Shown here in pieces: positions 13,029-62,722 of a DNA stretch of 64,000 nucleotides (within the stretch, counting starts at the first letter, position 1; the number at the start of each line of letters is the position of its first letter). Under the pieces are notes generated by a model. That model was not told the origin of the DNA and did no database searches. It saw only the letters and a list, made by a program, of their open reading frames with translations. The stretch lies in contig JBBHKE010002422.1 in the NCBI GenBank assembly GCA_037447655.1, positions 1 through 64,000 on the forward strand, read 5' to 3'. Both the position numbers and the translations under genes were made by a program. Source of the DNA: Zygnema cylindricum. Its lineage: Eukaryota; Streptophyta; Zygnematophyceae; Zygnematales; Zygnemataceae.

Positions 13029-13252
13029 CTACACCGCGAATCGTTATTAGTGTCAAAGTTTAAATAGCGTAAAAAAATAATTAGTGTTATTGATTCTAAT
13101 TTAATGCCAGAAACGTGGCAGATTATGGTCCACGTACTTAAATAGCGTTGCTAATTTAATTACAAAAATCATGTATACTAATTGCGGAAAAAAATCAAAA
13201 TTTTAAGAACCCTAATTAGAGTTATATACTCTAACAACGATTTGCGGTGTAG
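13029..13252. repeat. TA-type MITE (second subfamily)
   Basis: Ends CTACACCGCGAATCGTTATTAG and complement. The interior holds CCACGTACTTAAATAGCGT, shared with the copies at 44205 and 44426. Confidence 0.8.
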
Positions 13253-22119: not shown

Positions 22120-25100
22120 TTAGATAGCTCCGGTGAGTTTACTCAAAATAGCCAAAACACTGATTGCAATTATAATGTTGAGAAAATAATTCCCTTTCAA
22201 TGGCTGATCCGGTGATCCCCCCACGGCCAAATATTCGGCTCTTAATCTCTCCTTCATGGCAGGGGAGAGATCCTTCTGCAACATATATTCACAACCTGCC
22301 AGCTGTCAGATTATTCATTCGTTATTTTGCTTAGGGTTTTTGTAAAAAGTTTTGGAAGTCAAATTATTCTCCTCTGTTAACTACTTTCCCAGTATTTGCA
22401 AAAAAATCTTGCGAGTCAAATTATTCCTTTGTTAACTACTTTTCCAGTATTTGAGAAAAAATCTTGAAAGCTTGAAAGCTTGAAAGCGGATAATTTCTAA
22501 GTTAGTTTCTTTCCAGTAAAAGTCTTGCAATAGAAAATTCTTAGTGCTGGGAGTTTCTAAACTATACCTATATTCCAATCCCCCTCTCATCTAACATAAG
22601 AATAGGGTAAAGAGAAAACCGACCTAACCACTCACTTGACCAGATGAATAGTTGGCAGCTTTGAATTTTTCGGGTTGAGGAGCATCAATCACAATACCCT
22701 GCAAAAAAAATAATAAAAAAGAGGAAACCAACTCACAATTACAAATAAACCCGGCTTCACAAATTGGTACTGACCAACTTCACCGGAAACATAGAATGCC
22801 CGAGAACTGAAAAATTAAATAGATAAAAAAGACGACCAATTGAGAACCGAAAATGGTAAATAGATAGGATAGAAAAACAAATTACAGTTTATTAGCAGAG
22901 GAGCTCCATCTGCTACACCTTACATCGATATGAGAATTAGTAAATTATGTGTCAAAGCGGATTCGGTATCAACTACACTAAATTAAGTTTTAAAACATAG
23001 CTCATTATAGGCTACTTAATCATGTAGTGTCATCAACAGTATTCTACGATGCCAAATTACATCAATCTAACCATAACAATGCGTCACAATAAACTGAATG
23101 TGAAATAGAGTACAAACCTCAGGGGGGTCAAATTGTGCTCCCAGTTCACTAAGTTTTTTGTGAGCCAGAGCATAGTCTGCAAAAAACGCAGCCTCGTCTT
23201 CTGCATATTTCTCGGCGTAAACCTGAACACATGTACAAAACATTCTTTCAACGAACAGCTTGTACAAAACAAACAGTGAGGCCCCATACTTTTCCAAACG
23301 ACGACTTTCTCTATTATTCTAAAAATTGAAAGAGATTTAAATCAAGTGCAACATAATGTAAAGGGAAGGGAATTTGCTGTGATGCAAAGTATTTTCATGT
23401 ATGGCGACAGATGATTGAGCCACAGAATTTTATTCATGGGTTCCTACTACCATATGCTGACTCCCAATACCTGACAGGATTGCAATGAAGCCATTCCTGG
23501 ACTATATTAATTTTTACTCACACGAGGTATACAAAACTAAGTAAATACACGGGCCACCGATTTATCGGTTTTAAACAGCCCCCACCTTAAAGCTTGGGTC
23601 TTCAAAAAGAGCTGCATCAGTAGGAAGAACCAGTAAGTCTTCATCCTTCTTTGCCTTCACATCCTGCAAAACCCAATGTCCAGATGAACAAACAATTTTT
23701 TGCATATTTAGTCACCAGGAACAACTTCATACCACTTTCATACCACTTTCATGAAATTTCCTAGTGTTGCTCATCGGTGGCCTGAGACAGAATAACCAAT
23801 AACACAGTTTGATTTACTTACACATAATCAACATATCTTTCAATATATCGTTCGAGATATCGACGGTCATGATACAGGATATTGCTCAAAAAACAACATA
23901 TTTCAGGATTTAGTGTTTTCTATATCTCTTGGAAGTTTTGTCGTTGGAAATGATTTCCTGTCAGTTTGATACGCTGCAAATGAACATAGGACAACGCTGA
24001 TATTTTTGCAGAGTAAAAATACGTACAGGTAAGCTGCCTCCCAATCCACACTACCAAAAAAATTTGTGATTTGCGAACAAGATAAAATGATACCTCCTGT
24101 ACAGTACAGCTTAGGTAAGTGTACCGTACGGTATGGTGCAATAGAACACCGATAATATATCGCGACAATTATCGATCATCGGCAACCATATGAACTATTA
24201 TTTTTGATGGGTCACCTACCAGTACTATAGGCTAGCTGGATCGATCGACAACCAATAATATCGTTATCGTAGTTTTGACTCGCCATCCAATGAGCAACAA
24301 GAAATGGCAAAAGTTCCCGATGACTAATTGAGAGGAAACAGAGAGTGATTGGCACCATAACTAAAACCTCTGTTACCTGGGACCAAACTAAACTCAACCT
24401 CCACTTTTAGTCTATTTCAGGTGCCAAGACATCACTGAAAGAAATCCATTCATTCCCTTCACGGAGAAACAAAAAATGTCTGAAGCCTGCTTGATGTTGA
24501 CAAATCCCAAAACAGGTTGACTTTTTTATAATCGTTCATATTCACAAAACAGCAAACTCTGCGGGCTTACCTTGAAATAAGAGTTATCAAACTTCAGCCA
24601 TTCAACAGTCCAAGATTGACCTCCTGGTGAACCAGGTCCATCTTTCTGCCCACCCCCATAAAAATAGGTGATACCCGTCGTAAGTGACATGTTTAACATT
24701 AATCAGGGGAAAGATTTTAACATTAATGTAAAAGACTCAAGGAAGAAAGACAGTCTAAAGTCATGTCCATTTCTATGCTGACTATCAACTCAAAAAATTG
24801 TCACATGGCAACGATTCACAGTTGAACTAGCAAACCAAGGGACAATTGTGATGTACTTGACAGTTTAATCATTAGTAAACAAAGAATGATTCCGTTACAT
24901 CCAGAAGCTTGCTCTTTTTGTGCGACCACATAGTAAGAAAGATTTCACTGCGCAAAAATCACTATGATTTAAGCACCTGACAGGACATTTCTTTATTGAA
25001 CACAAGCTTCAATGCTCCATGAAGAAAGATCAGGTTTTGCATTGGCTGATTATCACACGTGAGAAAGTTTGAGCTACATGACTTAAATATCAGACTATGC

Positions 25101-28100
25101 TTTATTTTGTAGAAAGCTCTCAAAACAAAAAACTGTAGTTGGGAAAACAAAAAGAGAAGTTGTCATATATGTCCAAAAAGTCGCACAACCACAGAGATTT
25201 AAACCTCCTACATACCGTATATTTTGTCTCTTGCTTCCCCCATCCACTACGTTCTGGACGTGAACGACCCAATGTATGGGCACCTGACAAGGCCACAATT
25301 TCCTGCATTTGGAACACCTCAAATCCCGCTTCAGAATGAGAAAAACTTCAATGTTGTAAATACAACAAAATATATCATAGGCCAATACACTTCAAGGAGA
25401 AGATAAAGGACTTTTCACAATATCATTACAAGTGGCTAAATTACTGGGTGACTATAATAGCTCTAACCTCTGGGTAATCCTAAACTTTCCCTGCAAATTG
25501 CTCAGCCTCTAGCTTTTTTGAAGCCTGCATGCCTGCTCACTGATAAAGCATTAATAGCCGGTATATATAAATTGTTACTTTCAGGTCTACTGTTGTATAA
25601 AAATTCGCCTCCGAATGGCTAAAGGATGTACATCAATAACACCTACAGGGGCTGACTCCGTTACAAATTTCTCCGCGAGAAAAACTACTTCTTTGATAAT
25701 GACAAAAATCTGCAACAAGGACTAAAAACAAAAATAAGGCCTGGGGCAAGAATAGCCCCAAACAGCCCTTACCTGGTCATTCAGCCCCATCCTGTAGAAG
25801 ACGTTGCGGAGATGCTCAGCAGGATTAGGAGGGCCAGCATCTGCACAACCATAAGAATAAACAGAATAAAAGTTTTAAATTGAAGATTCTCACAGAGCAT
25901 TTAATGGCACATTTCTTTGCCCAATCGACCATCAACAAGTCATGTAGGTGGAGCCAAGCTTTATTATTGCAGTAGAAAGGCAGTAAGACTTAACACATCA
26001 AATCCCCGTCTTAAGTTAGGCGGCAGTTTCGAAGTCACGGAGACTTGAAAATATCATGTCAGTAATCATCTGTATTTCTGAGACAACAGCATTGGTGTTA
26101 TCCCAAACAAAAAAAAACCATCTATTGCACAGACAATCTTATTCGAAATCCTGTGCTTCCTGTGTAAATCAGAGATGCTTTAGTTCGATCGATACCCATA
26201 TCACACAAAAAAATTATAACTATCGAAAATTGATGCGACAATTTTCTTTTTAATCACACACAAAAAAGCACACGGGTTGACATTGTTGACAACCAAATAA
26301 TGCAGAACATATGTCAAACTTGAGACTTCTACAGATTAAAATACACCCAGCTAGGAACCGACATTAATCGATGTAATGTGACACACACAAATACAGTGAA
26401 TAATATGACGACTCTTTCACACTGCAAAAACCAGCGTTTGGGGAACATATTGCATAAACTGGCACTAACCAACAGGAACGTTAGATACAGATGTAAATCA
26501 AGAAGTCATGCCCTTAAGACTGCGTCCATACAGATTACTTGAAATAATTATTCAAAGTGCTCTCGGAAAAACATGAACCTGTTTACTTTTTATCAAATCT
26601 GAATAAGCTTCATGAAGAAAGTAGTCAGGCGCATATGTCATTGCTATACTAATTCATAAATAGAACTGAGAAGAATCTTGCAGGTCAAAATCAGAAGACA
26701 AATGGGGGCGAGGATAAGAGTAAAGTCCAAATCAAACACCAAGAATCGAGAAAATTCTGTAATTTCACGAACAACATCATAAGCTCACCTGTAACGCTTT
26801 TACAAGCAAAAGAAAAAAAAAAAATAGGGCTAGAAAACAACCTTCAGTTGTCAACTAATCTCGTACACCTTGAATGTCAAAATTCAAAGTGGAAATTTCA
26901 CTGACAACTAACGAGCACTGTTTGCTGAAAGTCAGAAAAGAAATCTTGAAAATATCAAGCTACATTCTAATTTAGAATTCAGATAAATTCACCAACAAGT
27001 GTACATATAATTCACTAACAGACCTGGCAGGTTACCCTCGCGTGAACAATCATCCGGGGATCGTGCATCTACACGCCCATATTTCATAGGAATCTTTGGG
27101 CCACCAGCAAGCTGCAATGCACACAAAATACGGATAAATCTTTTTGGTAAGGACACTGCACATCCCTATTAGTGGTTAGAAATCATGAGTGCAAATGCGG
27201 AATTAGAATTTATAACACTAATTCAGTGGAGGGAGGCCTGGGACCCTGTAGCCCACTCCCTTAAACAGTGTTAATAATACTGTTTTTGATTTTTGGTCAA
27301 AAATCCGTGACATAAGCTATTAACACTACTGGTGATAGGCAGTGTACTGAATGTATCCTCCAGTTGAAAACATCTGATCGTAAAATGAGAATGTCTCAGC
27401 ACTTCCAACAATGGTATTCAAAATTTATCCTTGTAATTGAAGGTATGAGAATGGAAATGCTGCAATTAGTTCAATTCTCAAAACCTGCCACTCACACACT
27501 TATTTGCACCATTGCATTGCTAACAGCTGTAAATATACAGATAGGTCACATGATCATGGGTATGACTATGATATGCATATTCTCCTGAACCTAAAACAAA
27601 CGAATGCTAGCAACTTAGCCACTTAAGAATTCAATATTTTTTTAAACTGCCCAACCTTTGAATAACCATACTTTACTAACATCTACAGTCTGCAGCCCAC
27701 TCCAAGGAGCAAAGGACTGAAAAAACTAGCTTCAAAATTTGCCAAAGATGTAAAATCTTTTCAGACTTATGCAAAATTTGTAACCCGAATGCCAAAATAG
27801 CTCAAAGAAAAGGGAAAATGACATGAACCATACCTCCACTGCTGTGGCGCTGGCCAGTTGGAACAAATCGGCATAGCTCACATTTGGAAACTTTTGGCGG
27901 ATAGGCTCCAGCAGGTTAACTGCTTTCAAAAGACCTGCAGGTGAAAATCAAAACACAAGATTAAAACGTGTTAATGTGTACATTGCCAGACTATATAATC
28001 ACTTGTACAAATACCCAAACAAAATAACAATGTGCCAAGACAAGAAAATCAGTCAAACTTATCCAAAAAACATAATTATGTGTTTGAACCTCCAAAAGTT

Positions 28101-29698
28101 AATAAAATTGATATAGTGTTCAAAGCACAAGAGGACGGCTGCTTTGGATGCAGAGGACCTTTGTAACATTTCAGATTCCATGAAGGACTCCTGAAGTTCC
28201 TGAAACAAAGGAACAAACAAACAGAAACCCTTTTGCAACACTCCAAAGCATTACTAGGTTCTTTCACAAACCAATTGACAGCTGAAAGTAGAAAAACACT
28301 TCAAATAAAAAAAGATACAGCAACAAAAGTTCCAAAAAGGACCATGCTTCATAAACCACATTAAAATGAAGATGAAAAACTGAAAAAAAAAAAAAAAAAA
28401 AAAATCAAATTCCCATTTAGATCAATTAAATACCGGCATTGGCGGCATGGTCGCTTTCGGGCTTAAAACGAAGGCTGCCATTGGCCCCTCCATGTCTGGG
28501 CCACTCTGAGATGTTTTTGTCGTATGTGCCAGCATCATGCCAGCCAAGCCGAATCTGAAAAAAAAAAAAAAAAGGTAAATCTGTAGAAAATGCAACAACT
28601 ACTTGCATTAACATAACATTCACAAGGCGCCTTGGCTTTAACACACGAAGTACAAATCACAAATTACGAAAAAATTCCGATTGCAGGAGTCAGTCCAGAC
28701 GTCCACGCTAAATAGAGAAAGGGAAAAAAATCTCCATCTTGGCGTCAAAATATCACTTTTTGATCTCTTCTCAGCTGTTCACAAAGCGAAAAAGGAATTA
28801 AAGTCTCACATAGAAATATAATCTCTGTCTTGACATCAAACTATCACTTTTTGATCCCTTCTCCAAATAGCGAAAAGAGCAGTCAACCTGCCAAGCCATT
28901 TTTCATGTTTGTGAAAGGAAGTCTTACAAGAATAGGATTGCTGTTGGTGCTTTTGATAAGTTCCTTAATCGCTTCCTTTGCACCTTTTAACTGTGCTGGA
29001 TCCGAGGCCAATGAAGTGACCAAAAGCTTGTCTTTTTGTGCACTCCCTCGCGCTTGTTGCTTTGAATGCTGAAAAAGAACAGGAGGAAGACTAAGCTTCA
29101 TAAGCGGAGAGAGTTTGAAATAAAACGCACACAGTCGTAATACACAAACAATAACACGCAAAAAAAATACAGAAAAATAATAGAAGAATAATAATACACA
29201 AGCAAGAATACATAAACAACGTACAAACAAAAAATCATACAGAAACGATAACATACAAGCAATAATATCATACAAAAACAATAATGCACAAAAAAGTAAT
29301 ACACAAACAATAATACACAAGCGACAATATACAAAAGATCTTACACAAACAATAATAAACATTCTTATTTTTATTAATGTAGTCATTTCTTCGTATGTTT
29401 ATTTATTTATTCATGTGGAAATAAAAACAAAAAGATCAACGCCATCAATCACATTTTTGGGCATTGAAAACACTTAGAAAATAAGTTGCAAATTAGAACC
29501 CACCTTTAGAGCAGAAACGTCAGAAGTTCTGCAAAACTTGAGCCCTTCTGCAGTCAAGGATTGATTTCTTATGCCTGACTTCAAAGCACAAGAACTAATC
29601 TGAGAGCGTCGAAGACCTTCATTTTTCCGTGCACTAGGAGAAATAGCTGTCGTCAACTTTGACGTGGAGTATACTGCTGACGAAGATACTGCAGCCAT
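22120..29698 (-). CDS. tAPX: Thylakoid-bound ascorbate peroxidase, 12 exons, 425 aa
   Basis: Reduces H2O2 with ascorbate at the stromal face of the thylakoid. Exons (minus, 5' to 3'): 29698-29504, 29068-28928, 28554-28434, 27934-27834, 27111-27024, 25840-25773, 25302-25216, 24645-24571, 23663-23586, 23222-23118, 22698-22636, 22275-22120; all introns are GT-AG and phases join, giving 425 residues, the normal length for plant tAPX. Seen: Ser/Thr-rich N-terminus (transit peptide, residues 1 to about 75), distal motif [10 protein letters not shown] (Arg114, Trp117, His118), proximal His247 in LSGAHTLG, Trp279 in SWT, Asp308 in LPTD, and a C-terminal hydrophobic helix (about 404-421) after [13 protein letters not shown], typical of the membrane form. 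An in-frame TAG lies just upstream of the ATG. Divergent to the APX-DNL gene. It looks intact. Whether a soluble form is also made by alternative 3' splicing cannot be seen. Confidence 0.95.
23838..24188. repeat. CGATATATCG-type relic inside a tAPX intron
   Basis: TATATCGTTCGAGATATCG near the left and AATATATCGCGACAATTATCGA near the right recall the family at 730 and 19906. Ends decayed. Confidence 0.4.
29098..29360. repeat. ACAAACAATAATAC-type degenerate tandem repeat in tAPX intron 1
   Basis: Many imperfect units of ATACACAAACAATA and variants. It creates artificial cysteine/tyrosine/phenylalanine-rich minus-strand ORFs. Confidence 0.75.
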
Positions 29699-30827
29699 GG
29701 CTGCTGCTGACTAAGTAGAGAGCAGTGATGAGATACCAAGACAGGCTCACTACAATTTTAACGAGCTTCTAGTGACTCTGCAGAGTTACAACTTAAAGCT
29801 AAATAAGTAAATATGCTATCCACAATGTGACTTATGTACCAGTACAGGGAAGTTACTGAGCAGCTAGCTGCAGTACAAATGTACAATACTAATTGGACTG
29901 TAGATAATACACACGTCAAATTCTTATGACATATTGGATGAACTTGACAAAGACGTACTGTAAATAATTAGAATCAGTACCACATCTTTCGACACCAGTG
30001 AAGCGATAGCTATTTACTGCAACTATCGTGTACTGATTTTGAACATATGAAATTACTGAAGAATAGATACCTTTTGGTAGTTATGGGCGCAAAATACAAA
30101 TTCTGGTATAATTGGCCATGCCTTCTAAGTACATTTCTCTCATTAGATTTTGTACGGTACCGTTTTTCTCTTGGAAAGATACCGGAAGTACCGATTTCCT
30201 CCTTGGGTATCATCTAGAAACTCCGAGAAAATTGGAATTGATGACGTCCTGCCTGTTTGTGGACTACAGTACCACGTCTACACCATGTATCGCTATTAGC
30301 CTATTACCGTTGATATCTTTATCGGCCGTTAAAGTTTTAACTCATGTTTTAAATGCACACTCTTCCTGTTTTTAATCTGACGGATAAACTACACTATTTA
30401 AGGACGTGGACCATAATCTGCCACGTCTCCTGGCACTAAATTAGAATGAATGACGCTATTTTTTTCTTTACACTAATAATTTCTCAACGCTAATAACGAT
30501 TCGCGGTGTACTGTACCGTTAATCTTTTTTCGGCCGTTAAAGTTTAAACTCATGTTTTAAATGCACACTCTTCCTGTTTTAATCTGACGGTTGCGATGGA
30601 ATACCAATATTTTTGCTTTCCGGTTGGCAGTTCTCGATGAAATTTCGACGAAGTGTGCACGGAGAACATTTGATTACGTGGCCAAAAAACATGACGCGCA
30701 ATAGCCATACACACTATATACTTGCATGTTCTTTGCCTTCGCTGTACTCCATCTCTGGAAGTACTACAGTTCTAATTGAGCTTCCTTTTCTACTCGTTTC
30801 CTCTGCTGCAAAGCCTAAACAGCAGAG
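29699..30827. promoter_or_regulatory. Divergent intergenic region between tAPX and APX-DNL
   Basis: The 1,129 bases between the two start codons must hold both promoters. Specific boxes could not be assigned with confidence. It contains a composite MITE (30278-30719) on the APX-DNL side. Confidence 0.6.
30278..30511. repeat. Composite TA-type MITE
   Basis: The left part is the palindromic subfamily (CTACACCATGTATCGCTATTAG, CGGCCGTTAAAGTTTTAAC) and the right part is the second subfamily (GGACGTGGACCATAATCTGC to CGATTCGCGGTGTA). The next about 200 bases (30512-30719) restart with CCGGCCGTTAAAGTTTAAAC-like sequence and continue the first subfamily, so one element seems inserted in another. Confidence 0.7.
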
Positions 30828-33800
30828 ATGTCTACGGCTTCCATTGTAACAGTATCCACAGCTTCAAGCTGGACTTCAACTGTTTCATTACCGATTCGAT
30901 CTCATTTAAGTCCTCGATATTCTCAGAGTGGCTCACCTTTTCTGAAATTAGGCAGCAAAGGCCATCGATGTACATCAGAAGGCTTAGAATTTCGGCATTT
31001 GTCACGCCCCTCTGATAATTTAGTGTTGAAGGTGAGGCTAACATGTTGAAGCTTCGATTGTTTCAATTGCATTATTAGCTAATCGAGGTTGTTTGCTTTT
31101 TTAGCCAAATTATTTGCGCATGTCTTCTATGACATTGTTGAGTGTGTATTTCGTGTGTATTATCATCCTTTCAATAATTTTGTGTTTTTATTTAATTTCT
31201 AAATAAAATTCATGGATTCTTCTTTTTGACATTTGCCATCTTTCAACATTTTAATGTTGTTATTTCAAATTTAAAGTTGCATTCAATTCTCTTTTTCTCA
31301 AATTTGCAAGACAATGCATGAAATTAAAGGTGATATGCCCTCATATTCTAATTATGTTTATTGATTATACGATCAAAGCTAGATTCTATTAAAACCAAAA
31401 CATTACTAGAGTAGTCCTTATAATGAATCTAAAATCTTTGTCTTCTCAAAATTTATGTATTCTGAAAAACTTCGTACTCTCAAAATATTTTTTTGTCAGC
31501 GTTCCACTCAACAAGGAAAAGTAAATACATCAAGAAACAGGTCTTTTGTCACTTTTTCAGTGGCTTTAAACCCTGCGGAGCACAAAACTGCACAATTAAA
31601 AGGAGCAAAGGAGGCAGTCAAGGAACTAATTAAGAGCACTCACTGCACTCCTATTCTTGTAAGTTTTTTTTTATTTTTCTTAACTCAGTTACATGGCACC
31701 TTTTGTTTTCAGTTTTAGCCTTACTAGCTGTACAAACTTGTAAATAAGAAATGATGAGGTGGTGACTATCTGGCATCTACTTTTTTGACTGTCACTATTA
31801 GTGTTAATGCTAATAATTTGATCGCGGCTTATTTTGACAAAAAAACACAAAATTTTGTTACTAACAGTGTTGAAGGGAGTGGACTGCAAGTCGCTATGAC
31901 TCCCTACTAATAAGTTAGTACTTTTTAGTTCCGCATTTACACTAAAAGTTCCTTTACACTAACAGCGATGGGAAGTGTACTTCTATTCTTGTGATTGGTA
32001 GGCTATGCTGTAGTGGAAGCTATTTCTGTTCTTGACTTGTGCTAATTAGTAGTGATACATTTTCCTTCTCTTTTTTTTTTTTTTTCAGATTCGTCTTGGC
32101 TGGCATGATGCTGGCACATACGACAACAGCATCTCAGAGTGGCCTAAACATGGAGGGGCCAATGGCAGCCTTCGATTTAAGCCCGAAAGCGACCATGCCG
32201 CCAATGCCGGTATTTATTCAATCTGAATTACGGTGTTGATTTCGGCGTTAATTATTTAATCCGTTTAAATCTGGTGTGCGTGTTGGTAGCTGCTTGGAAC
32301 TTGAAGTGACAGATTTTCTGAATTTTGAAATACCTGGTATCAGTGTTAAAGTAAATCTGTTATTTTGTCATTTTTTTTGTCACTTAAATCAGACTTTCTC
32401 CATTCACACATGTCCGATTTTCACTTGAAAGTGGCCGATCGGAGATGAGAGTCTTACCTGTTCATCACAACTTTCCAGTCAAAAATAGGACAAGTGTGCA
32501 CACGTAAAAATGATTTTAGAGGGTGAAAAAATCTCAACTTAAAATATATGTTTCACGGTGTAGTTAAGTAAACTTGAAAATTGGAGTGTATATTTTGTGC
32601 AAGCCTGTTTTTGACACAGGTGGAGCAGAGTATTTTACATTTTGGTGAGTACTTTTAACTTAGATTTAGACTTGAGTCGCTTCATCAATTCTGAATTGTT
32701 CACAAGAGCCTTGTTCATGTTGATATGGATTCTTTAGAAATTCATTTCCTTTATGCTCTTGCTGTTTTGTGTCAAAAAAGGGGAATTTGCCAATTATGTT
32801 TCACTTTTTGTCTTGACATTTTCCTTGCCAGAAAGCTGATTTTGTGGATGAAAGGATGCATCTTGCGGCGAAGGCAATAGCAGTACAATATAATATAATA
32901 TTATGTTATTGTGCTGCTGTAACTGTAGGCCTTACAATTGCTATTGGCCTATTGGAGCCAATTCACCAAAAGTTTCCGGATGTGAGTTATGCGGATCTGT
33001 TTCAATTGGCCAGTGCCACAGCAATTGAGGTATGGAGTTACAATGCAATCGTTTGCCGTAAATGCAAATTTTCTATCCTGAGTGCCAGTTATTTTCAGTT
33101 TATGCCAATTCTTTACAGTAAATGGCGATTTTAACTGTGAATTGCTGTAATTGCAATTGTTTACTCTGAGTTCAGGCCTTTCCTCTTCCTACAATAAGTA
33201 GCAGCTGGAAGCTTTTCTGTGCAAACGTTTAGATTGTAAAATGAAAACTGTGTGGGCTAGTATTGTCCAACGTTTCTTATATCTCTGTGGCCATGTCGCT
33301 GCTATCTTTTAGCTATGTTTGGCGATTCAATCAGTGAGTATAAATTATAAGTTCTGAGCTGAATGGCAATTCACACACGAGAGAAGTTGAGATCGATGAT
33401 AAATTCTTACTAGTCTTTGCTTTGAAAGTCTTCTTATGACATAAAGAAAGTGCTTCAAGCACGCAGAAATGTACTCTTTTGACTAATTAGTAAAGTGATA
33501 CATATTGAACATTATTCTCTGGAGGGAAATTCGTAACAAATTCGACACATAAAAATTTTGAACTTCGAGAGCTTAATGATTTTCCTTATCATTCTGCAAA
33601 TCTCCTATTCTTCCGGGTGTGGATGAAAGATGTTAGCTGGAAGTGTAGAAGGAACTATCGCCTTACTTGAGTGGAAAGTTCAAAATGAAGGATACATTCA
33701 GCAGTATGTTTGTTGGTTACAGTATCCTACTTGTGAAAGTCAAATTCCTACTCCATTGAAACTATTTCTAAAAACTTCATTAGTAAAATTATAACCTGTC

Positions 33801-36800
33801 TTTTGTATAATACAGGTTGCTGGAGGCCCACAAATTCCAATGAGGTATGGTCGTGTTGATGCACGAGACTATCTCGATTGCTCAAAGGAGGGAAACCTGC
33901 CAGGTTTGTCCATTAACATTGTTTATATAAGTGGTTTTTTGAGAGTCTGTGAGATTATGTTAAGAATGGTAGGATTATTTCATCAGCGACGCCAATCAGC
34001 GACGCCATTATGGCTTGAATAGTGCACTTTTATAGATCTTATATTAGTTATGATTTTGCGCTAGGTGGTGGATAGATAAGAGGAGTTTTAAATTAGGCCG
34101 TTAATACTATGGTTACATTCTCAGAATTGATTTTGGGTGCAAATGTGACCTTTACAGAGAACTCATTGGAGTTGCAAATGAAGGCACGCCGAATAACTCT
34201 AATTCAGTCGCGGGTTTTTTCACCCAAAATCATGAAATAGTGTTAAGAGCACTGTTTTAGTAAGTGGCCGAAGATGAGCCACGCCGTCTGCTCTATTTAG
34301 TGTAATTAATACTAGTACGGCTCTGATACTAATTTTGCACTATTAAGGTGTACTTCTCTGCCATCGCTATCAGAGTTAATAGCAATAGTGTTAGGGTGAG
34401 TTTTTTCCCCCGAAGATCATAAATTTGTGTTAATAACACTATTTAGTTAGGTGGCCCATTATGAACCACCGGGGCAACACAGAATTTATTGTAGAACGTA
34501 CTAAATCCGCTTTAACGTTGATAATTCTCTATCTCTAATAGTGGTGGAAGGTATTCTCTTCTGGTGATGTAGGGTCGTCTGTAAAACTGTTCGGGTTTCT
34601 GTGCTTTGTGGATATCATTTTGGTTTAATGTCTAAAGAAATAATTCGTTTTTTGAAGTGATGATGGAATGTCAATCCTGCATTTTTTTTAGTGTACTGGT
34701 TCCAAATTGCTTAAAAAGATGGATTCGAGGTTGTGAACATTTGAGCTATAATGTTGTTCACAAACTTTCATGTCTCTAGCATTATTGGCATTATTTTTCA
34801 AAATCTACCGTACAAGTGCAATTCGAAATTGTCCAAAATTATAGCATGCTCTTAAAGTTGTAAGTTAAGAGTATCTCAATGGAATAACCACCTCCATAGG
34901 AACATTGCCTTCATTATCGCATTTTTTTGGTACTCGTTGAGCTTCAACTATGTGTACTTACAAATGTGTACTTAGTTCTGAAGTTTTGTTACTTTTTTAA
35001 ACAAAGTTATAAAAATGAAGGTGTCCTTTCTTATTGAGGTATTCTTTCTTTCAGTTTTGGTGAATTTTGTGCAATGATAATGTTTGTACATGGCATCTTC
35101 CGGTGCAGACGAAGAAAGTTATCTTGTGCCAACTATTGAACTTTGAGTGATTTTTTTCCCAAAATTAAACTCTATTCATGCATTTCTCATATTTTGGGTG
35201 CAGATGCTGGCCCTCCCAATCCGGCAGAACATCTTCGTAAAGTTTTTTACAGAATGGGGCTCAATGACCAGGCACAGCCTCCTGCTTCTCTTTTTCCTTG
35301 AGATTTTCGATTTGTCTGATTCTCACATCTTTCTCTTTTTCACTTGAGGTGGCAATGATGTTGCGATTCTGGAACAAGTTTGGTCCTAAAGTGTTGTCAT
35401 CATCCCAAAGGTTTATTGCTACTTAAGAGTGCTGTTAAGGAGAGATTTCTGTGTCACTGACTGGAGAAGACATACATGGATAGATTTTTTGTCTTAAGGC
35501 GCAAATACATAAATATGTCTGTATGTATACATTTATACAGAATTTGTCGTCAATGAGTTATCCTTGGTGCAAGACGTAATGGGGAAGTGTGAGAACGATA
35601 ACATGTTGAGCTTACAAGTTATAATATTGATCAATTTTCATACTGAACGAGCACTTAAGTTATTTCTGGTGCAGGAAATTGTGGCCTTATCAGGTGCTCA
35701 CACTTTAGGACGTTCACATCCAGAGCGTAGTGGATGGGGGAAGAAGGAGACAAAGTATACTGTAGGTCTTTTTTTTGACTGTATGCGGTCATGCTATTGC
35801 ATAGAGGTTTGCGCTATATTTGTGATTTTTTAGTCATATTTCATTTATTCTGGGCAGTTGCCCTTGGATTTTCCTCATGGATAGGGTTGGAGATCTTTCT
35901 GTCAAGCATATGCCTGAACTCTTTGAAAATCAACTCGAATTGTGGTAAAGAGTTTAAATGTTGACTGTTCTCCCTTGAAGACTGGTTCGAATGGGGAAAA
36001 GAGTTAAAATAATGTCTGTTCTCCCTTGAAGACTAATTCGAGCTGAAGTGTGGATTTAGATCAATTAGGTTACACTTTACTGGCTAGCAGAAGTGCTTGA
36101 CTGGTGTAACTAATCTTTCCCTGTTTTCAGAAAAGCCTCTTTGCTCCATTAATATGGTGTTACTTGTCTTTTGTTTTTTTTTCTCTCTCTGCTGCACTCT
36201 CTCTTTCTCTTCCTCTTCCAATCATTTTTCCTCTCCTATTTTCTTCAACTCTATTTTGACTCTCCCTCTCCTAAAACATGAAAGTTTGCAAATAATTTTA
36301 AGAATTCAAATAAAGTACAAATAGTGAATAACTTTGAATTTACATAAAATATCAATGTCTACTATGAAAATCCTTCAGGAGGATTTGACTCATTAACCCT
36401 GATAAAACGAAGGCTATAGCTACCCAAAATACACCTGGAAAAATATCCAGTCTCCCTCCTCCCTTTCCATCATGTAAGACAAATGGTTCTCATGGGGATG
36501 GACAGAAAGACGGCCCGGGCACCCCAGGAGGTCAGTCTTGGACAATTGATTGGCTTAAGTTTGATAACTCTTACTTCAAAGTAAGTCATTGAGATTTTGT
36601 GTTGCACTCGAAACGCCATTCATTTCTACTGGTATAAGTACATAATTTGGTTTATTTTCCTTGGAAAGGTTGTTTAAGCCTGGTCTTTCTAGCTTTTGTT
36701 TCTGGTTTTTTTTTTTTACTCGTGACTCTTGACAAATGGACTTTGCAGGATATCAAGGCAAGTAAGGATGACGACTTACTTGTTCTACCCACAGATGCAG

Positions 36801-39629
36801 CTCTCTTTGACGATCCAAGTTTCAAGGTGGGTCTCCACTGAAAATATATAGGTTTCATGTATTGCTTAATGTGATTGAAACTGCTTAATGTGATTGAAAC
36901 AGCTTAAGGCGATTTGAACAGCTTATGATGATTTGGACGGCTTTAACAGGAGTGTTCAGTTACCATACTGTGCGACAAAACTTTCAGATTCTGACGATCA
37001 TCACTTTGTAGACGCAGCCCATTACCCCATTAAATTGATTTACTTCTAGAGTCTCCAGATTGAATCTCTTTGCTTTGTTCAATTCATGTTTCTCTGTTTT
37101 AGCACAAAGGGGACATTGACAAACTGGGTTATCCTTTTTTATTTCGTTCGCCGTTGCTTACTTTTTCGAAAGAACTGATTTATAACACATTTAAAAAAGA
37201 ACTGAATTATAATACTTTTACAGAAGGACTGATTTATAATATCTATACAAAAAACTGATTTATAAGTGGACGTGAGGACAACGGTTGTTAGAATGTAGTG
37301 TGAATTTTTTCGTTTGTTTCCAAGAGTAATCCAGAGAAATAACCGACTTGTAAGACCTACACAAAAGAATCGATTCATAAGTAGAAGGTCGGTGCAGCAG
37401 TCGTTAAGATTAAGTGTGAGTTTTTCCGTTTTTTTTCAGGTGTATGCTTATATAGAAGAATTTATTTATAAGTAGAACGTCGACACAACAGTTTTCAAGA
37501 TTTAGTGTGAGTTTTTCTGTTTGTTTCCAGGTGTACGCAGAGAAATATGCAGAGGATGAAGCTGCATTTTTTACAGACTATGCTGCAGCTCACAAGAAGC
37601 TTAGCGAATTAGGGGCAAAGTTCGAACCACCAGAGGTGTGTGTTTCTTTCTAATCTTGTGTTTACTGTTATCGTATAGTGAATAAGGAGCAAATTTCGGC
37701 TGCCCAAGGTCTCTGTTTTTTTTCCATATCTTGTTATTCTGTTGTTGTTGTTTCTATGTTGTTCTTGTATTGGGTTTTCATGAAGTTATTCTTCTCAAAG
37801 GAGGAGGTATGTTTTGCAAGTAGAATCACGTAAAGATATTCTTGTGTTGTTGTTGCAAGCACATGAGAGGTACCTTTTGTAGGTCTTTCAGTTTAGAATG
37901 GAGTTACTTTTATGAAGCGGATTCCTCATTGATTTGTTACTATTGTTTCTTTGACATGTTTCACAGGGGATCTCCATTATCGAAGGTTTACCAGAACTTT
38001 CCGAAGTGAGTATTGGTCCATCGATTTTTCTCTGCCTTTTCTTAGCATTTTCTTTTTACTTATTTTCTTAATCGTCTTGTGTCTCGGTGTGATTTTTCGT
38101 GTTAGCCTTTTTTACAGTAGCTCCAATATAACATTTATGTCAGGGTTCAGCGTTAGAGGTTGTCACTCCGAATTTTTCAGTAATGACAAGAGGCTCCTTT
38201 TACTTACAGATTATTCTTTGAACTTAGGCATGTCTCTCCCTCTCCCCCTCCTCCCTCTCACTCTCTCACTCTGCCTCTCTCCAACTCTCCACCCTCGACG
38301 AAGTCCTAACAATGTTAAGTAAAGGAGCTTCTAAATTTTCAGTAACAAGGGACTCCTTTTCTGACAAACGCTCCTCTGGACTTAGTCGAAGGTGGAGTTG
38401 GAGAGGGGGACGAGTGAGAGAGGAGGAGCGAGAGAGGGAGAGACGTACCTGAACTCAGCCATGATGCTTTGGACTCACAACATTATGGGGTCTTTGCTTT
38501 CGCTATTGTTCCGTCTAGCAGAAAAGTCTAGACAAGTGACAAGCCATTATTTGTCTTTTAGGAAAATTGAGGGTACCAGCTGGAGTATGAAGACACCCTT
38601 TGTCTATCAACAGAAATTTGAGCCTTCTATAGGTGAGTGTGAAGCCGTATGTTTTTGTTTTCAAGAACGTCACGTCACATAAACAATAGAAGAGATTCCA
38701 ACGAAATGGCATTTTTTTTCTTGCCAATTTGGGCGGTTTTATCTCCAAGAAATGAAATGTGAGTCGGTTTCTCCACGGTCGTTACTTGGAAGTGTAATGT
38801 TATGGAGCACTTCTTCTGGTGGGAGCAGAGAATTCTTTTTTTTTTTTTCAAAATGAAGTGGCAAATTTCAGTTTTTTCGTTTTTTTTTTTGCAGGCAAAG
38901 GTTCATCAAACGAATGGAAACAGTTTTGGGGAAGGAGGACCGAGCAACTTCACCAATGTCGATTCAAAAACAGTCCAGGTAACTGTCCACTGGTTCATTT
39001 CCTCTTTCCCTCCTTTTCCTCCTCTTTCTCCTCATCCTCCTTTTCCCCTTAGTATTTTTCCTCTTTGGTTTGCCTACTTCCGTCCCTTTTCTACTCTCTT
39101 TCTCCTTTCTCGCCTTCTTATTCTTCGCTTCTACTTATTCTTCTCCTTCTCCTTCTTCTCCCTTCTTTCTCCCTTTTCTCCTTCATCTCCTCCATCTCCT
39201 TTTTATCCTTCTTCTTATTCTTCTTATTCTTCTTCTTCGTCTTCTCTCTTCTTTCTCCCTTTTTCTTGAATAAGCTACTAGGTCCGAAGATGCGGTCATT
39301 TTTTCCTTCTCAGTCTTCACCGTCATCTTCCTTGTCCTCTCTGTTTTTTGCGTCTTTGCAATTGATTTTTAACTATTGTTGTGTGATTTTGACAGATTCC
39401 ACTCGACATGCCTCGGAGGAGAACGCAACTTTCTTTCACTTGTAATTTGTGTGGAGTGCGGTCGACTCGTATGGTGAACCCACTTGCCCTCGCTCGAGGA
39501 ACCGTTTTTGTCCAGTGTGAGGGGTGCACTAAATTTCATCAAATTGTGGACAATCTAGGACTTATTAAGGAGTACAACTTCAAACTGGAGGATGAACTAA
39601 AACGCCAAGATATGCCTGTGGAGGAATGA
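30828..39629 (+). CDS. Ascorbate peroxidase fused to a C-terminal DNL-type zinc finger, 13 exons, 480 aa
   Basis: Exons: 30828-31031, 31500-31658, 32089-32209, 32929-33029, 33816-33903, 35204-35271, 35675-35761, 36506-36580, 36749-36826, 37531-37635, 37967-38005, 38895-38978, 39396-39629. The reading frame is continuous. Exons 3-10 have exactly the lengths and phases of the neighbouring tAPX gene. Residues 1-68 look like a plastid transit peptide; an in-frame TAA lies 12 bases before the ATG. Peroxidase residues are intact: Arg123, Trp126, His127, His256, Trp288, Asp317. Residues 363-403 are a linker. Residues 404-480 are a DNL zinc finger: Cys419-x2-Cys422, Cys444-x2-Cys447, and HxIVDNL at 451-457. 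Known: DNL proteins (Zim17/HEP) assist organellar Hsp70. There is no membrane helix, so a soluble stromal location is inferred. The intron after exon 6 starts with GC. It remains possible that exons 11-13 also serve a separate short transcript. Confidence 0.8.
31795..31982. repeat. Decayed TA-MITE-like sequence in APX-DNL intron 2
   Basis: CACTATTAGTGTTAATGC at the left and TTTACACTAACAGCGATGGG near the right recall the MITE termini. Confidence 0.4.
32337..32566. repeat. TA-type palindromic MITE, diverged, in APX-DNL intron 3
   Basis: Keeps TTTGTCACTTAAATCAGACTT, a CACATGTCCGATTTT / AATAGGACAAGTGTG pairing and a TTTCACGGTGTAG end. Confidence 0.65.
34080..34560. other. AT-rich repeat-like stretch in APX-DNL intron 5
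   Basis: Repeated motifs of the type TAGTGTTAATAACACTATTTAG and GTGGCC...GAGCCAC suggest old inverted-repeat insertions. Similar motifs occur at 27205-27350 in a tAPX intron. No coding. Confidence 0.4.
38562..38632 (+). other. Possible 71-base cassette exon in APX-DNL intron 11
   Basis: Bounded by TCTTTTAG and GTGAGTGTG. Preserved with both splice sites in the pseudogene copy (about 61390). If included after exon 11 it gives an early TGA, so it would truncate the protein before the zinc finger. Read in another phase it encodes [11 protein letters not shown]...QQKFEPS. Confidence 0.35.
38990..39265. repeat. CTT/TCC-rich low-complexity tract in APX-DNL intron 12
   Basis: Polypyrimidine simple sequence, copied at 61825-62090 in the pseudogene. 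It produces artificial Ser/Phe/Leu-rich ORFs. Confidence 0.85.
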
Positions 39630-40639: not shown

Positions 40640-40923
40640 GGGGGGCTACTAAGGAGAGAGGATGTGTTTAAACAACAAAAAGAGGAAGGAAATGAGAAAG
40701 GAGGAAGGGTTTGATGAAGAGAGGGAGAGAGGGAAATACAGAGATACGGAAAGAGGGAGACAGGGAGAGGGAGAGAGCCAAAGACCGACTGAGGGACGGA
40801 TAGAGAAAGAGAGGAAGAGAAACAAAAAGAGTTATATTTCGACAATCGAAGATGAAGTGCGAGACAGGCAAATTTCTCAGAAGTCGAAAGAGGAAGAAAT
40901 AAAAGGAGAGAGCCTGATGGCAG
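40640..40923. repeat. Purine-rich (GA) low-complexity tract
   Basis: GAGAGGGA/GAAAGAG-type sequence directly before the cytosolic-type APX exon. It may mark the point where that gene's 5' part was lost. Confidence 0.75.
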
Positions 40924-41284
40924 GATGAAGATGTTTTCTTCAAAGACTATGCCGAGGCTCACAAAACACTGTCCGACTTGGGGTGAGTTTTGTTTTACGC
41001 CTTTAGTTAATGAAGTTCTTTTATTTTATTTTTGTTAATTTAAACGTATGTGGAACTCAATCTTGTTGCAAGTCTTTTGTTGGTCTGGGAAATCTTTTGT
41101 TGGTGAATCTTGTCTTTTGTCTTATGTTGGTCTGTGACAGCTATCGGTTGTAAACCTTTGACCAAAAACTTTTTTTTTTATTCAAGCTGTATTGCTTTTT
41201 GAAAGTGAATATTTGTATCCTGTTGATAATTTATTTCTTTTTGGTGGTCTGTGGTTTTTTTGCAGATTTGCTACCGAGGACTAG
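40924..41284 (+). pseudogene. Last two exons of a cytosolic-type ascorbate peroxidase (5' exons missing)
   Basis: The segment 40924-40982 reads DEDVFFKDYAEAHKTLSDLG in frame, ends at a GTGAGT donor, and joins in phase to 41266-41284 after a TTTTTTGCAG acceptor, giving ...LSDLGFATED then TAG. Ending directly after LGFA-like residues is the known C-terminus of cytosolic APX, unlike the plastid forms beside it. No upstream APX exons were found: the exon is preceded by about 280 bases of purine-rich simple sequence. It is therefore read as a truncated gene tail. It could alternatively serve as an alternative 3' end of the APX-DNL gene, since its start is also phase 0, but it lacks the VYAEKYA part of exon 10. 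Confidence 0.7.
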
Positions 41285-44204: not shown

Positions 44205-44409
44205 GTACACCGTCGATCGTATTTAGCGTGTTGAACACTAATTCGGCGCCCCTAAATTTTGACCTTTGAACCTTAAATAGAATAAATGACGCTATTTAAG
44301 GACGTGGACCATAATTTGCCACGTCTCCTGGCACTGAATTAGAATTAATGACGCTAATTTTTTCTTTACTCTAATAATTTCTACACGCTAAATACGATCG
44401 ACGGTGTAC
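44205..44409. repeat. TA-type MITE (second subfamily)
   Basis: Ends GTACACCGTCGATCGTATTTAG and complement, with GGACGTGGACCATAATTTGC inside. Confidence 0.85.
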
Positions 44410-44425
44410 TATGTGTAATGCGATA

Positions 44426-44630
44426 GTACACCGCGAATCGTTATTAGCGTTGAGAAATTATTAGTGTAAAGGAAAAATTAGCGTCATTCATTCTAATTTA
44501 GTGCCAGGAGACGTGGCAGATTATGGTCCACGTCCTTAAATAGTGTAGTTTATTATATTTAAGGTATTAATGTCCAAATTTTGGGGTGCCGATATAGAGT
44601 TCATAACGCCAATAACGATTCGCGGTGTAC
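44426..44630. repeat. TA-type MITE (second subfamily), opposite orientation
   Basis: Ends GTACACCGCGAATCGTTATTAG and complement. Interior GACGTGGCAGATTATGGTCC is the reverse complement of its 44205 neighbour, only 16 bases away. Confidence 0.85.
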
Positions 44631-47003: not shown

Positions 47004-47074
47004 GAGCTGGTGGCATAGTGGTAGTGCCTTCGCAGCTGAAGTGAAAGGTCCCAGGTTCGAACCCTGGCCGGCTC
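47004..47074 (+). tRNA. tRNA-like sequence (SINE head or tRNA pseudogene)
   Basis: GAGCTGG/CCGGCTC acceptor pairing, GCAT/GTGC D-stem, TTCGC/GTGAA anticodon stem and CCAGG-TTCGAAC-CCTGG T-arm all fold. Box A TGGCATAGTGG and box B GGTTCGAACCC are good. The anticodon loop AGCTGAA lacks the invariant T33, so it is probably not a working tRNA. It resembles 50935-51006. Confidence 0.55.
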
Positions 47075-47187
47075 AATTTTCCCAAGTGTCAGATATGCCG
47101 AATCCCGGATTTCTAGGAAAATATAACACTTTCGTGACCGAGTTTGATATTACACCGCGAATAGCTATTGATGTAAAGAAATTATTA

Positions 47188-54748: not shown

Positions 54749-56331
54749 ATGGCTTTGGCAAAAGCTCAAAAGCTTGCGGCGGATAACGCAGTGATGGTTT
54801 TCAGGTGCTTTTTTTTTTTCTTTTTTTTTTTGTTTTTTGCAATCTCTTTAGGTTGTTTTAATCGAACATTGTGTTTTTTTGGTGCCTATCTTGACTCTTA
54901 ACAGTAGAAAGGCGTGTTTTTTTTTCGTTTTTGTTTTTTTTTATTTGTTTATTTTTTTATTTTTTGTTTTTTATTTTATTTTTTTATTATAATTAATGTA
55001 TTTATTTTTTTATTTTTCAAGGTCTGATGAGGTTGTAATTAATTGATGCCAAAAATTTGTTTTTTTATTACGATAGACTTTTTTCCTGGAAAAAAAAAAA
55101 AAAAATCTTTCCTATTTTTGTTGTTCTGGAAAATTGGCTGTAAAAACTATTTAAAAAGTAAACCTCTTGTTTTACTTTCCTTTTTCTGCGTTCCCTGAAA
55201 AATTGATGCGTTTTTTTTTTTAGTCTTCTGTTTTTTTTTTCCTGTTGTGGCCTTTCCTGCAAATCTTACTCTAAAAAAAACTTTTTTTTTTTACTATTTT
55301 GCCATTTTTTGCAGTAAAACATATTGTCCCTATTGCTCGAAAGTGAAGCAACTTTTTAAAAGCCTGGGAACTTCACCAGTGGTATTTTTTTTTCCTCCAT
55401 TCTTTTTTCTTTTTTGTCAAGTACTGTGACAAATTTCACCTTTGGGATGGAAGAGTCAGAAAACATTTTTTTTTTATAATCATAAGTTGGAAAAATCAAA
55501 ATACATACAGTCATAAAAGTTATTGCTTGTTCAGTTACCTTTTCCTCACACTTGGTATGTTGATTCTTTGCATTTAATTATTTTTATATCTATTTTTTTG
55601 TGTTAAATATAATTCAGTCCAACTTGATGTTTGTCTATGCTAATAGGGTAATACTGAATAACCAAAAGCACAGTTAAAGGGTTTTTTAATATTTATTCCC
55701 ATCGTTTTTTGTTAACTTTTTTTTTTGGGTCGGAGTGTGCTTATTTTGTACTTGTTTGTATGTGTGTGTGTGTGTGTATATATAATATCTTTTTTTTTGT
55801 TTAATCTCTTGTCAGAGCAGCAACTTACTTTGTCTATGTTTTTGTCTATTTTTGTATTTTTTTTTTTTTTGATACAAGTAGTTTATTAACTTATTTTATT
55901 CCCTTTTTTTTATGTAGGTTTATGAACTGAACGAGGAGGCCGATGGAGACGAGGTGCAGGCAGCTCTCCACCAATGGACTGGCCAGCGATCCGTGCCCAA
56001 CGTCTTCATTTCGGGGAAACATATCGGGGGCTGCGACAGTAAGTAGTGCGAGCTTATTTGTTCGGTTTTTGGTTTTTTTGTTATTTGTTTGGTTTTTAAT
56101 TTCATTTTTTTGTTATTCATTTGGTTTTGTTCTTTTGGTATTCGTCTTTGGAGTTGTGAGAGTAAGTATTGCGATCTTATTCATTTGTTTTTTGGTGTTT
56201 ATGTTATTAATTTGGTTTTGTTTTTTTGTGATTCATTTGCTTTTTGTTTTTTTTGTTTTTTTTGTCATTCGTCTGGGTTTATATTTTTGTTGTTTGTTTG
56301 TCTGTCCGGTTTTGTTGTTCATTTTTTTTTT

Positions 56332-56411
<80 letters not shown>

Positions 56412-57031
56412 TCTTTTTTTATTCATTTTTGGCAATTGTTTTGGCACTACTCTCCTGGTTATTTTTCTTACTGAAGGATGTGTTACGTCATTCAATTTTG
56501 TGTATGTTTTTTTCTTGATTACCGTATTGTAAAATGTTTGTAGTAGAAATAATTACCTTTTCATTTCAGGTAAATAATGGTGATTGTGACAGTAATAAGT
56601 CTTGCAATCTTATTCATTTGTTTTCGGCATTATTTTTTTGGTTAAGTTCATATTTGATTCATATGGTTATTTAATTTTGTCTTCCTTTTTTTTTTAACCT
56701 ACTGTATGATACCAAGTATATATTATGTACCCACTAATGCTTACTACAACAAATGACAGTTTTATTGACTTCTTTGTCCCTTTAGAACTCTGAGCGCCAA
56801 AAATCGTGCAAAAATTTCACTGTTTTCCTTTTTTTTTTTAGCCTTCATGAAACCCTGATAAACAAAGCCTCTGTGAAGCCCTAAGAAATCAAGCCTATGA
56901 TTTTGAAGTCTATACCCCGAAAAAATAACACTGTCGATTACCTTTTCCCTTTTGTCTTTTTTGCAGATACTGTAGCTCTCCATAGTCAAGGAAAGCTGGT
57001 ACCCCTCCTTAAGGACGCCGGGGCTCTCTAA
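54749..57031 (+). CDS. Class I (CPYC) glutaredoxin, 4 exons, 102 aa
   Basis: Glutathione-dependent dithiol oxidoreductase. Exons: 54749-54804, 55315-55381, 55918-56038, 56967-57031; all GT-AG introns, phases 2, 0 and 1 join correctly and end in TAA. Seen: active site Cys23-Pro-Tyr-Cys26 after KTY, SVPNVFI at 66-72 (cis-Pro68; the family usually has TVP), glycine pair GG at 78-79 followed by CDNT, and the C-terminal LHSQGKLVPLL. The length of 102 fits a soluble single-domain glutaredoxin. An in-frame ATG at 54635 would add 38 residues, but that stretch contains a roughly 60-base imperfect tandem duplication and looks untranslated, so the ATG at 54749 is preferred. If an upstream exon exists, an organellar form is possible. 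Introns are extremely T-rich. Confidence 0.92.
56333..56410. repeat. Poly-T run of 78 bases in glutaredoxin intron 3
   Basis: Uninterrupted T from 56333 to 56410; the true length may be uncertain. It could be the tail of a minus-strand poly-A retrocopy or simply slippage. Confidence 0.95.
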
Positions 57032-57969: not shown

Positions 57970-59037
57970 TCAAATTTTATGAAGATTTTTCACATCAATA
58001 TTGAGATGAAAGTCTTTGACGGACCTGCGCCCCGGCGAAGTTTTTGAGAGCGTGACCTCGGTCAGTTGGAGAAAGACTTGAGAACCCTGACAGGTAAAGA
58101 ACTCATTAGAATCCCCCGCTTTCCCCTTCTTGATATGATGAGGAAGGAAGAGAACATGACGCATCCAAAATGGACCGTTGGAAGGCAAACACACCGTCTG
58201 AAACACGAGGGACAATGGTAGCAAAAAACGAGAGACAAGAGTGGAGGTAATAAGGCGCCAACTTCCCAAACAGGTAGCGAGAGCAGATAGTAAACCCAAT
58301 TAACCGGTAGAGACAGGAAGAAAAGCTTGAAGGCGAGCCGTAAGCCTAGACTCGCGATCAAAAGCCCCACGATTTAACAAACTAGGAAAGATATCCATGA
58401 GGCGATGAGGCGATCATGCTGAGGCGATGAGGCGATCATGAAAGGCAGGCAGAAAGGGATGAGACAAACGTTGGGGTGAGCTATTAAGGTAGGAGGAGCG
58501 GTGGGGGGAAACACCGTCAAATGAGCAAAAGTCACCTTGGGATAAGAAAGGTTGGAAAAGTCGTCCATGTGTGACAAATCTGTATGAAGAGCAGAATCAA
58601 GAAATTGGGTCACGAAAGTATCGGAATCGAGAGGACAACCCAACACAACTGAAAGCGCAACCCAACACACAAATGCCATGAGAAGGGGAGTCCGAAAACC
58701 AAGAGGGGAAATAAAAGTAGGGATATCACGATAGCACCAAACAACACACTTTGAGGGTTGGACAGGAAGGTTGTGTTCTGCCAAACGATCCTTAAAAAAG
58801 TTAAAAGCCGGTAAATTACTTGGTTTCAAAGGGCCAATAATGTGTGTATTGCCTGCAACCGAAGGGAAGAAGGAAGGGAAGAAGCAAGAAAAGAAAGCGG
58901 TAGCGGAAGCGCGAAGGGCCTAGTAATGAGCAAGGTCTCCCGCGAGGGTCGCCTTGACGAGTGCCGATCGTAGAGGAGAGCGGAACCAAGTCACCATCAG
59001 CGGAGAAAGTGAGGTTGCTGGTCAAAGAATAAAACAA
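57970..59037 (-). pseudogene. Degraded reverse transcriptase fragment of a retroelement
   Basis: On the minus strand 59037-58816 encodes a segment with STIGTRQGDPRG, resembling the conserved G-x-x-QGDPLG motif of reverse transcriptases. Downstream, 58829-58374 carries AEHNLPVQPSKCVVW, resembling the segment after the catalytic YxDD region of non-LTR-type enzymes (leading into xxKCxxW). The pieces lie in different frames with stops between them. No complete polymerase, YxDD box or element ends could be located, so it is a relic. It abuts the left edge of the APX-DNL pseudogene block. Confidence 0.55.
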
Positions 59038-59039
59038 AG

Positions 59040-62000: not shown

Positions 62001-62722
62001 TCCCTTTTCTCCTTCATCTCCTTCATCTCCTTTTTCTCCTTCTTCTTATTCTTCTTCTTCTTCTTCTCTCTTCTTTCTCCCTTTTTCTTGAATAAGCTAC
62101 TAGGTCCGAAGATGCGGTCATTTTTTCCTTCTCCGTCTTCACCGTCATCTTCCTTGTCCTCTCTGTTTTTTGCTTCTGTGCAATTGATTTTTAACTATTG
62201 TTGTGTGATTTGGACAGATTCCACTCGACATGCCTCGGAGGAGAACGCAATTTTCTTTCACTTGTAATTTGTGTGGAGTGCGGTCGACTCGTATGGTGAA
62301 CCCACTTGCCCTCGCTCGAGGAACCGTTTTTGTCCAGTGTGAGGGGTGCACTAAATTTCATCAAATTGTGGACAATCTAGGAGTACAACTTCAAAGTAGA
62401 GGATGAACTAAAACGCCAAGATACGCGTGTGGAAGAATGACTGGAGCACATTTTTGTTCGTCTCTTCGTTTCCAATTTTTTGCCCTTTTCATTTATTTAT
62501 TTTCGCTTTTGGCGCCTTACACAAGTGTTCTAAGCCACGAAGCCGTTGTTATGTTAATGATATTATATTTTGTGCAACAAGGTATAAGGTTTAGAAGATA
62601 CGTGTGTGTATTAGATTGTAATAATAGTTTTATTCGTTTTGTTCTCTATGTTAGCGGTTCTACTTCTGGTTTGACAGACACTCGGTGGTTGAGGTGCTGT
62701 ACTTGTATGTGTAGTTAAGTTT
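59040..62722 (+). pseudogene. Partial duplicate of the 3' half of the APX-DNL gene, inactivated
   Basis: This copies about 36310-39946, introns included, in the same orientation. Exon equivalents: 59237-59311, 59487-59564, 60260-60347, 60788-60826, 61728-61811, 62218 onward. Damage: a Trp codon became TGA at 59282-59284; the exon-10 copy is 88 instead of 105 bases (frameshift); an 11-base deletion near 62382 shifts the zinc-finger exon and gives a stop at 62404-62406, just after the VDNL motif. All APX exons before exon 8 are absent. The linker and zinc-finger exons keep their splice sites, and the four zinc-binding cysteines still encode in frame. It is read as a non-processed 3' partial duplication. 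Transcription of a short zinc-finger product cannot be excluded. Confidence 0.88.

Follow-up and report, generated by a model that had tools for sequence, protein, structure and literature searches.

An ascorbate peroxidase gene of Zygnema cylindricum predicted to continue in frame into a DNL-type zinc finger

Chloroplast ascorbate peroxidase (APX) genes of some plants yield stromal and thylakoid forms through splicing. DNL proteins, the Hsp70-escort family (HEP, Zim17/Tim15), bind organellar Hsp70 and prevent its aggregation. In Arabidopsis, Physcomitrium and Chlamydomonas the APX and HEP2 parts are separate. For plastids, passages of PMC9695410 that cite other work state that DNL (Tim15-like) proteins interact with cpHsp70. 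Unusual APX relatives also occur in charophyte-grade algae; according to sections of PMC8069737, these APX-R, APX-L and hybrid APX proteins are set apart by changed residues at 38, 41, 42, 163 or 172.

Here we describe a gene of the zygnematophyte Zygnema cylindricum that combines features of the first two groups. It lies in a 64,000-nucleotide stretch of DNA, hereafter the window (GCA_037447655.1, contig JBBHKE010002422.1, positions 1 to 64,000 of the forward strand), and is referred to below as the APX-DNL gene. Its active-site residues are identical to those of chloroplastic APX (sAPX/tAPX, such as tobacco 1iyn), whereas in place of the short stromal tail or membrane anchor of those enzymes a linker and a DNL finger follow exon 11. 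With the plastid DNL/HEP/ZR Hsp70-escort proteins it has in common the zf-DNL domain and its four cysteines; the relatives of this type that we found stand alone, are 101-328 aa long and lack a peroxidase, whereas here the finger comes after the peroxidase. Unlike the APX-R, APX-L and hybrid proteins, APX-DNL keeps the standard R38, W41, H42, H163 and R172 equivalents, and judged by its predicted protein it is none of these in the sense given in the sections of PMC8069737 mentioned above. We think it probable, if only just, that the gene arose by duplication of a thylakoid APX (tAPX) gene and had its anchor exon replaced by linker and DNL exons of the plastid HEP/ZR type, giving a soluble protein of 480 aa.

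The APX-DNL gene occupies 30828..39629 on the forward strand. When its 13 exons were rebuilt they formed a single open frame of 480 codons without an internal stop, with an in-frame TAA immediately 5' of the ATG. Exon 1 (30828..31031) carries the start codon and a putative plastid transit peptide and is paralogous to exon 1 of the neighboring tAPX gene (35% identity, E 3.8e-5). Exon 2 (31500..31658) is followed by exon 3 (32089..32209), which encodes the distal Arg, Trp and His (R123, W126 and H127), and by exons 4 (32929..33029), 5 (33816..33903) and 6 (35204..35271). Exon 7 (35675..35761) holds the proximal His H256 and the ascorbate-site Arg R265, exon 8 (36506..36580) W288 and exon 9 (36749..36826) D317, and the peroxidase body ends with exon 10 (37531..37635). 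Three further exons, all joined in phase 0, complete the frame: exon 11 (37967..38005), with 13 codons that resemble the start of tAPX exon 11; exon 12 (38895..38978), a hydrophilic linker of 28 codons; and exon 13 (39396..39629), with 77 codons plus the stop and the complete DNL zinc finger (C419, C422, C444 and C447).

Pfam finds both domains in the 480-aa product well inside their limits: the peroxidase PF00141 at residues 105-336 (166.5 bits, cut-off 27, E 1.2e-48) and zf-DNL PF05180 at residues 414-474 (59.2 bits, cut-off 27, E 3.9e-16). As domains the two are beyond doubt, and the gene model is firm; a joint protein product, as predicted from it, is likely. A preliminary description of this locus had proposed an in-frame fusion of an APX with every catalytic residue to a complete four-cysteine DNL domain, with exons 10 to 13 all joined in phase 0. 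At the level of the gene model, with its 480 codons, 13 exons and two domains above their cut-offs, this is borne out, the rebuilt coordinates agree with the phases, and all the checked active-site residues and all four cysteines are present. The statement that the splice sites follow the consensus stood for exons 11-13, which are bounded by GT-AG introns. Overlooked at that stage were a GC donor at intron 6 (CAG|GCACAG), the one exception among 12 introns of which 11 are GT-AG, and, both treated below, a broken copy of exons 8-13 and an exon-like stretch together with ATG frames in intron 11. A retrocopy origin of the gene was rejected, as it was for a second, partial copy described below, because introns are kept in both.

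The peroxidase part is of the chloroplastic type. R123, W126, H127, H256, R265, W288 and D317, all present, are taken by us to be the equivalents of pea APX Arg38, Trp41, His42, His163, Arg172, Trp179 and Asp208, the pea numbering having been checked against alignments with cytosolic APX. Among PDB entries the predicted protein is matched best by tobacco chloroplastic APX 1iyn (E 1.1e-135), in an alignment of residues 97-371 that reaches into exon 11. The extra loop of chloroplastic APX is present, where the two cytosolic chains aligned have a gap. The likeness of exon 11 to tAPX exon 11, noticed at the outset, held up on comparison with the sister gene, and the exon aligns also to the C-terminus of the tobacco enzyme.

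The sister gene lies head to head with APX-DNL on the minus strand (29698..22120). It encodes a thylakoid APX of 425 aa in 12 exons, one of them a membrane-anchor exon, and this exon is found in the sister tAPX only; the anchor is indeed absent from APX-DNL, as had been claimed. The roughly 1.1 kb between the two genes (29699..30827) is a candidate two-way promoter. This shared upstream region contains one copy (30384..30512) of a repeat of about 120-130 bp, with further copies at 44282..44410, 44425..44553 and 13030..13148 and identities of 82-98%.

Phylogenetic analysis used 28 proteins, namely 26 picked by hand from 127 fetched plus the two window proteins, with variable ends included. APX-DNL groups with the window tAPX and P0009 (support 99/97), and inside this group tAPX and P0009, the nearest relative at 88.7% to the window tAPX, form a pair (support 97/92). 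The APX duplication therefore seems to predate the split from the source of P0009. Over exons 3-10 the comparison of APX-DNL with the sister tAPX gives dS 0.875, dN 0.078 and an omega of 0.089, and the peroxidase part is under purifying selection. In a core of 258 sites, with P0011 serving as the outgroup, APX-DNL has 12 unique residues and tAPX has 13, and APX-DNL departs only twice from columns invariant in 11 other sequences, both times by an Asp/Glu swap. In the whole-protein tree APX-DNL has a long end branch (0.45; tAPX side, 0.16 + 0.05), whereas the two genes are balanced in the core. A decayed peroxidase was rejected on the balanced core rates and on the omega values, of which that for exons 7-10, past the weak GC donor, is 0.048.

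The same value bears on the one irregular splice site. The intron 6 donor (CAG|GCACAG at 35271/35272) scores -3.3, the lowest of the 23 donors scored, versus 11.2 for CAG|GTAAGG at the same site of the sister tAPX. If this donor had decayed from GT to GC in a recently damaged locus, most product would end after exon 6 and little peroxidase or fusion would be made: reading through intron 6 meets a stop after nine codons, and a nearby partial copy of the gene is already broken. We rate such damage as improbable, the least probable of the readings considered here, given that 480 codons contain no second lesion, that exons 7-10 downstream of the donor show the low omega of 0.048 and that the GC base may also be a sequencing error. 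GC-AG introns form a minor class that is known to function.

The DNL part is equally complete. Exon 13 contains two CxxC pairs (cysteines 419, 422, 444 and 447), which are among the invariant columns of six aligned DNL sequences, and covers positions 1-61 of the 64 of the PF05180 profile. Its identity is 66% to the Chara protein P0001, 61% to the Klebsormidium protein P0002 and 51-57% to three more. Yeast Tim15 (2e2z) is the sole PDB sequence match of weight (E 3.7e-07). A structure predicted from an alignment of six sequences only (mean pLDDT 71.7, pTM 0.47) had 2e2z as its top fold match as well (E 0.027, probability 1.00, TM 0.54). The predicted fold agrees with Tim15 without the agreement being strong, since the TM is 0.54 and no match reached an E of 0.001 or better. 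Going by the known types and by the plant relatives found, the finger presumably belongs to the plastid type and not to the mitochondrial one.

Whether peroxidase and finger are made as one protein turns on the joining of exons 10 to 13. The exon 12 acceptor (score 17.1) is the best in 37600-39420. Among 1000 random intron stretches free of stops, 0.4% had a codon score as high as that of exon 12; for exon 11 the share was 6.1%. Per codon, exon 12 scores 0.26 in its own frame and 0.19 in another. Exon 12 taken alone could be chance, because three other pseudo-exons that are open in phase 0, with donor and acceptor scores of at least 6, occur in the introns of the two APX genes.

An alternative that we regard as possible and rather unlikely is that two genes are present. 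One would encode a stromal APX and stop in intron 10, in intron 11 just past exon 11, or a little farther on; the other, a nested DNL gene, would begin with an exon in intron 10 or 11 that encodes its own transit peptide and is spliced in phase 0 to exon 12. Reading through intron 10 would give a natural sAPX-like end, and P0001 (328 aa) and P0002-P0006 are standalone DNL proteins with their own N-termini, P0007 starting at the finger. In introns 10 and 11, nine donor choices in ATG frames of at least 15 codons reach exon 12 in phase 0, and an unspliced ATG frame of 31 codons from 38802 enters it directly. The rival start, an ATG frame of 62 codons at 38461..38646 (forward strand) with a phase-0 donor to exon 12, scores -0.04 per codon, near the real transit-peptide exons (-0.10 and -0.11), and not one of 1000 random intron stretches free of stops attained its codon score, taken over about 62-63 codons. 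Yet this stretch does not favor its own reading frame (-0.11 and 0.12 in the others), its donor (4.7) scores lower than 21 of the 23 model donors, and an imperfect inverted repeat immediately precedes it. Moreover, the splice sites of exon 11 and its open phase-0 frame towards exon 12 have been kept, neither of which two separate genes would need. Codon use does not decide the matter, since random stretches are outscored by exon 12 as well as by the rival frame, and transit-peptide exons score as low as the latter. The inverted repeat itself (38219..38457 in intron 11; arms of 36 nt, 81%) is possibly a fold-back element and by eye is present also in the second copy.

Intron 11 also contains an exon-like stretch of 71 nt (38562..38632, forward strand) whose acceptor (7.1) and donor (7.2) scores are within the range of the model sites. 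Included after exon 11, it shifts the frame to ...PELSE-EN-stop, and the protein ends before the DNL part. One locus might in this way give several products through alternative 3' processing, APX-DNL alongside a short soluble APX that would arise by retention of intron 10 or by inclusion of the 71-nt exon. We consider this, too, possible and rather unlikely, and it is compatible with the fusion. The splice scores are ordinary and the stop follows two codons after the frame shift; on the other hand, the stretch is but one of nine pseudo-exons in the introns of the two genes that pass both thresholds.

The order of the two parts is repeated elsewhere in the window. Exons 8-13, together with their introns and 3' flank, recur at 59040..62703 on the forward strand as a 5'-truncated and broken copy, which has a stop in exon 8 and deletions in exons 10 and 13. 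Its homology begins in intron 7, and none of exons 1-7 was detected beside it. Because the APX-then-DNL order is present twice, the second time in a diverged copy with introns, an assembly chimera is unlikely, and this order most probably predates the duplication that gave the second copy. Substitutions between copy and gene amount to 1.3% in exon 8, 10.3% in exon 9, 9.1% in exon 10, 4.8% in exon 12 and 2.7% in exon 13, versus 8.3% in intron 8, 14.9% in intron 9, 4.0-5.5% in introns 10-12 and 20.4% in the 3' flank; the rival 38461 frame differs by 3.7%. Exon 12 is no better conserved than introns 10-12; the copy is dead, and the comparison is a weak one for exon 12 and for the rival frame alike. 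Broken frames at 58377..59070 (minus strand), by eye remnants resembling reverse transcriptase, adjoin the 5' end of the copy; two pieces of them had no Pfam match up to E 0.1. Downstream of the DNL exon, an isolated remnant of APX exon 10 (40921..40983, forward strand) has diverged from both full genes.

Homologues were sought in a set of 5.8 billion proteins that includes transcript-derived entries. With the DNL part as query, one of 55 candidates among proteins of about 265-841 aa matched at E <= 0.01, the Chara braunii protein P0001, a standalone DNL protein of 328 aa without similarity to peroxidases. A 167-aa DNL query gave six matches out of 74 candidates, all of them DNL proteins without a peroxidase; P0006 and P0007 appear by eye to be distorted models. 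The whole fusion gave 7993 candidates and 2569 matches, and among the 120 of these 2569 that were listed all had PF00141 and none PF05180. The expectation that a single sequence in a relative would match both the peroxidase and the zf-DNL profiles was thus disappointed among the matches listed, in which the DNL relatives stand alone. Such a lack of fused homologues is weak evidence against the fusion, because the searches find close relatives only.

Among the open-licence PMC articles listed, judged by title and start of abstract, there was likewise no description of an APX-DNL protein, and none is described in the parts of PMC8069737, PMC9695410, PMC12854088 and PMC7571209 that were covered. 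APX4 and a DNL-type protein are separate entries in those parts of PMC7571209, and the main text of PMC8069737 uses neither 'zinc' nor 'fusion'. The remark that no such protein had been described therefore holds for the articles and matches listed from the open-licence PMC literature and the 5.8-billion-protein set. Both domains are known; their combination was not seen within these searches and on that basis would be new.

The arrangement that we favor, an anchorless tAPX duplicate carrying a DNL finger, suggests the following scheme. A thylakoid-type APX would have been duplicated, the last two exons of a plastid HEP/ZR gene, encoding linker and DNL finger, would have come to lie behind exon 11, and the anchor exon would have been lost. 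The APX transit peptide, to go by the paralogy of exon 1 with tAPX exon 1, would carry the protein into the stroma, where the finger, like plastid Tim15-like proteins, would bind plastid Hsp70 and help to keep it soluble and active. The tethered peroxidase would remove H2O2 beside a chaperone and import motor that would suffer from oxidation. Less surely still, oxidation of the DNL finger might act as a switch. A further extension, which we think improbable, is that APX-DNL is made and serves as the plastid Hsp70 escort of this alga, or as one of very few, with the 71-nt exon as a splice switch between free APX and the tethered form. If expressed, APX-DNL would link H2O2 removal and the upkeep of plastid Hsp70 in one molecule, would suggest that stromal chaperones need local protection against oxidation, and would offer a natural gene-fusion hint of an association between APX, HEP2 and Hsp70. 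It would also represent a third fate of the variable 3' end of chloroplast APX genes, beside the stromal tail and the thylakoid anchor.

Elsewhere in the window, a tRNA-Gln (ctg) gene lies at 47004..47075 (forward strand), and a CPYC-type glutaredoxin gene of four exons occupies 54749..57031 on the same strand, its hand-spliced protein matching PF00462 at E 7.8e-20.
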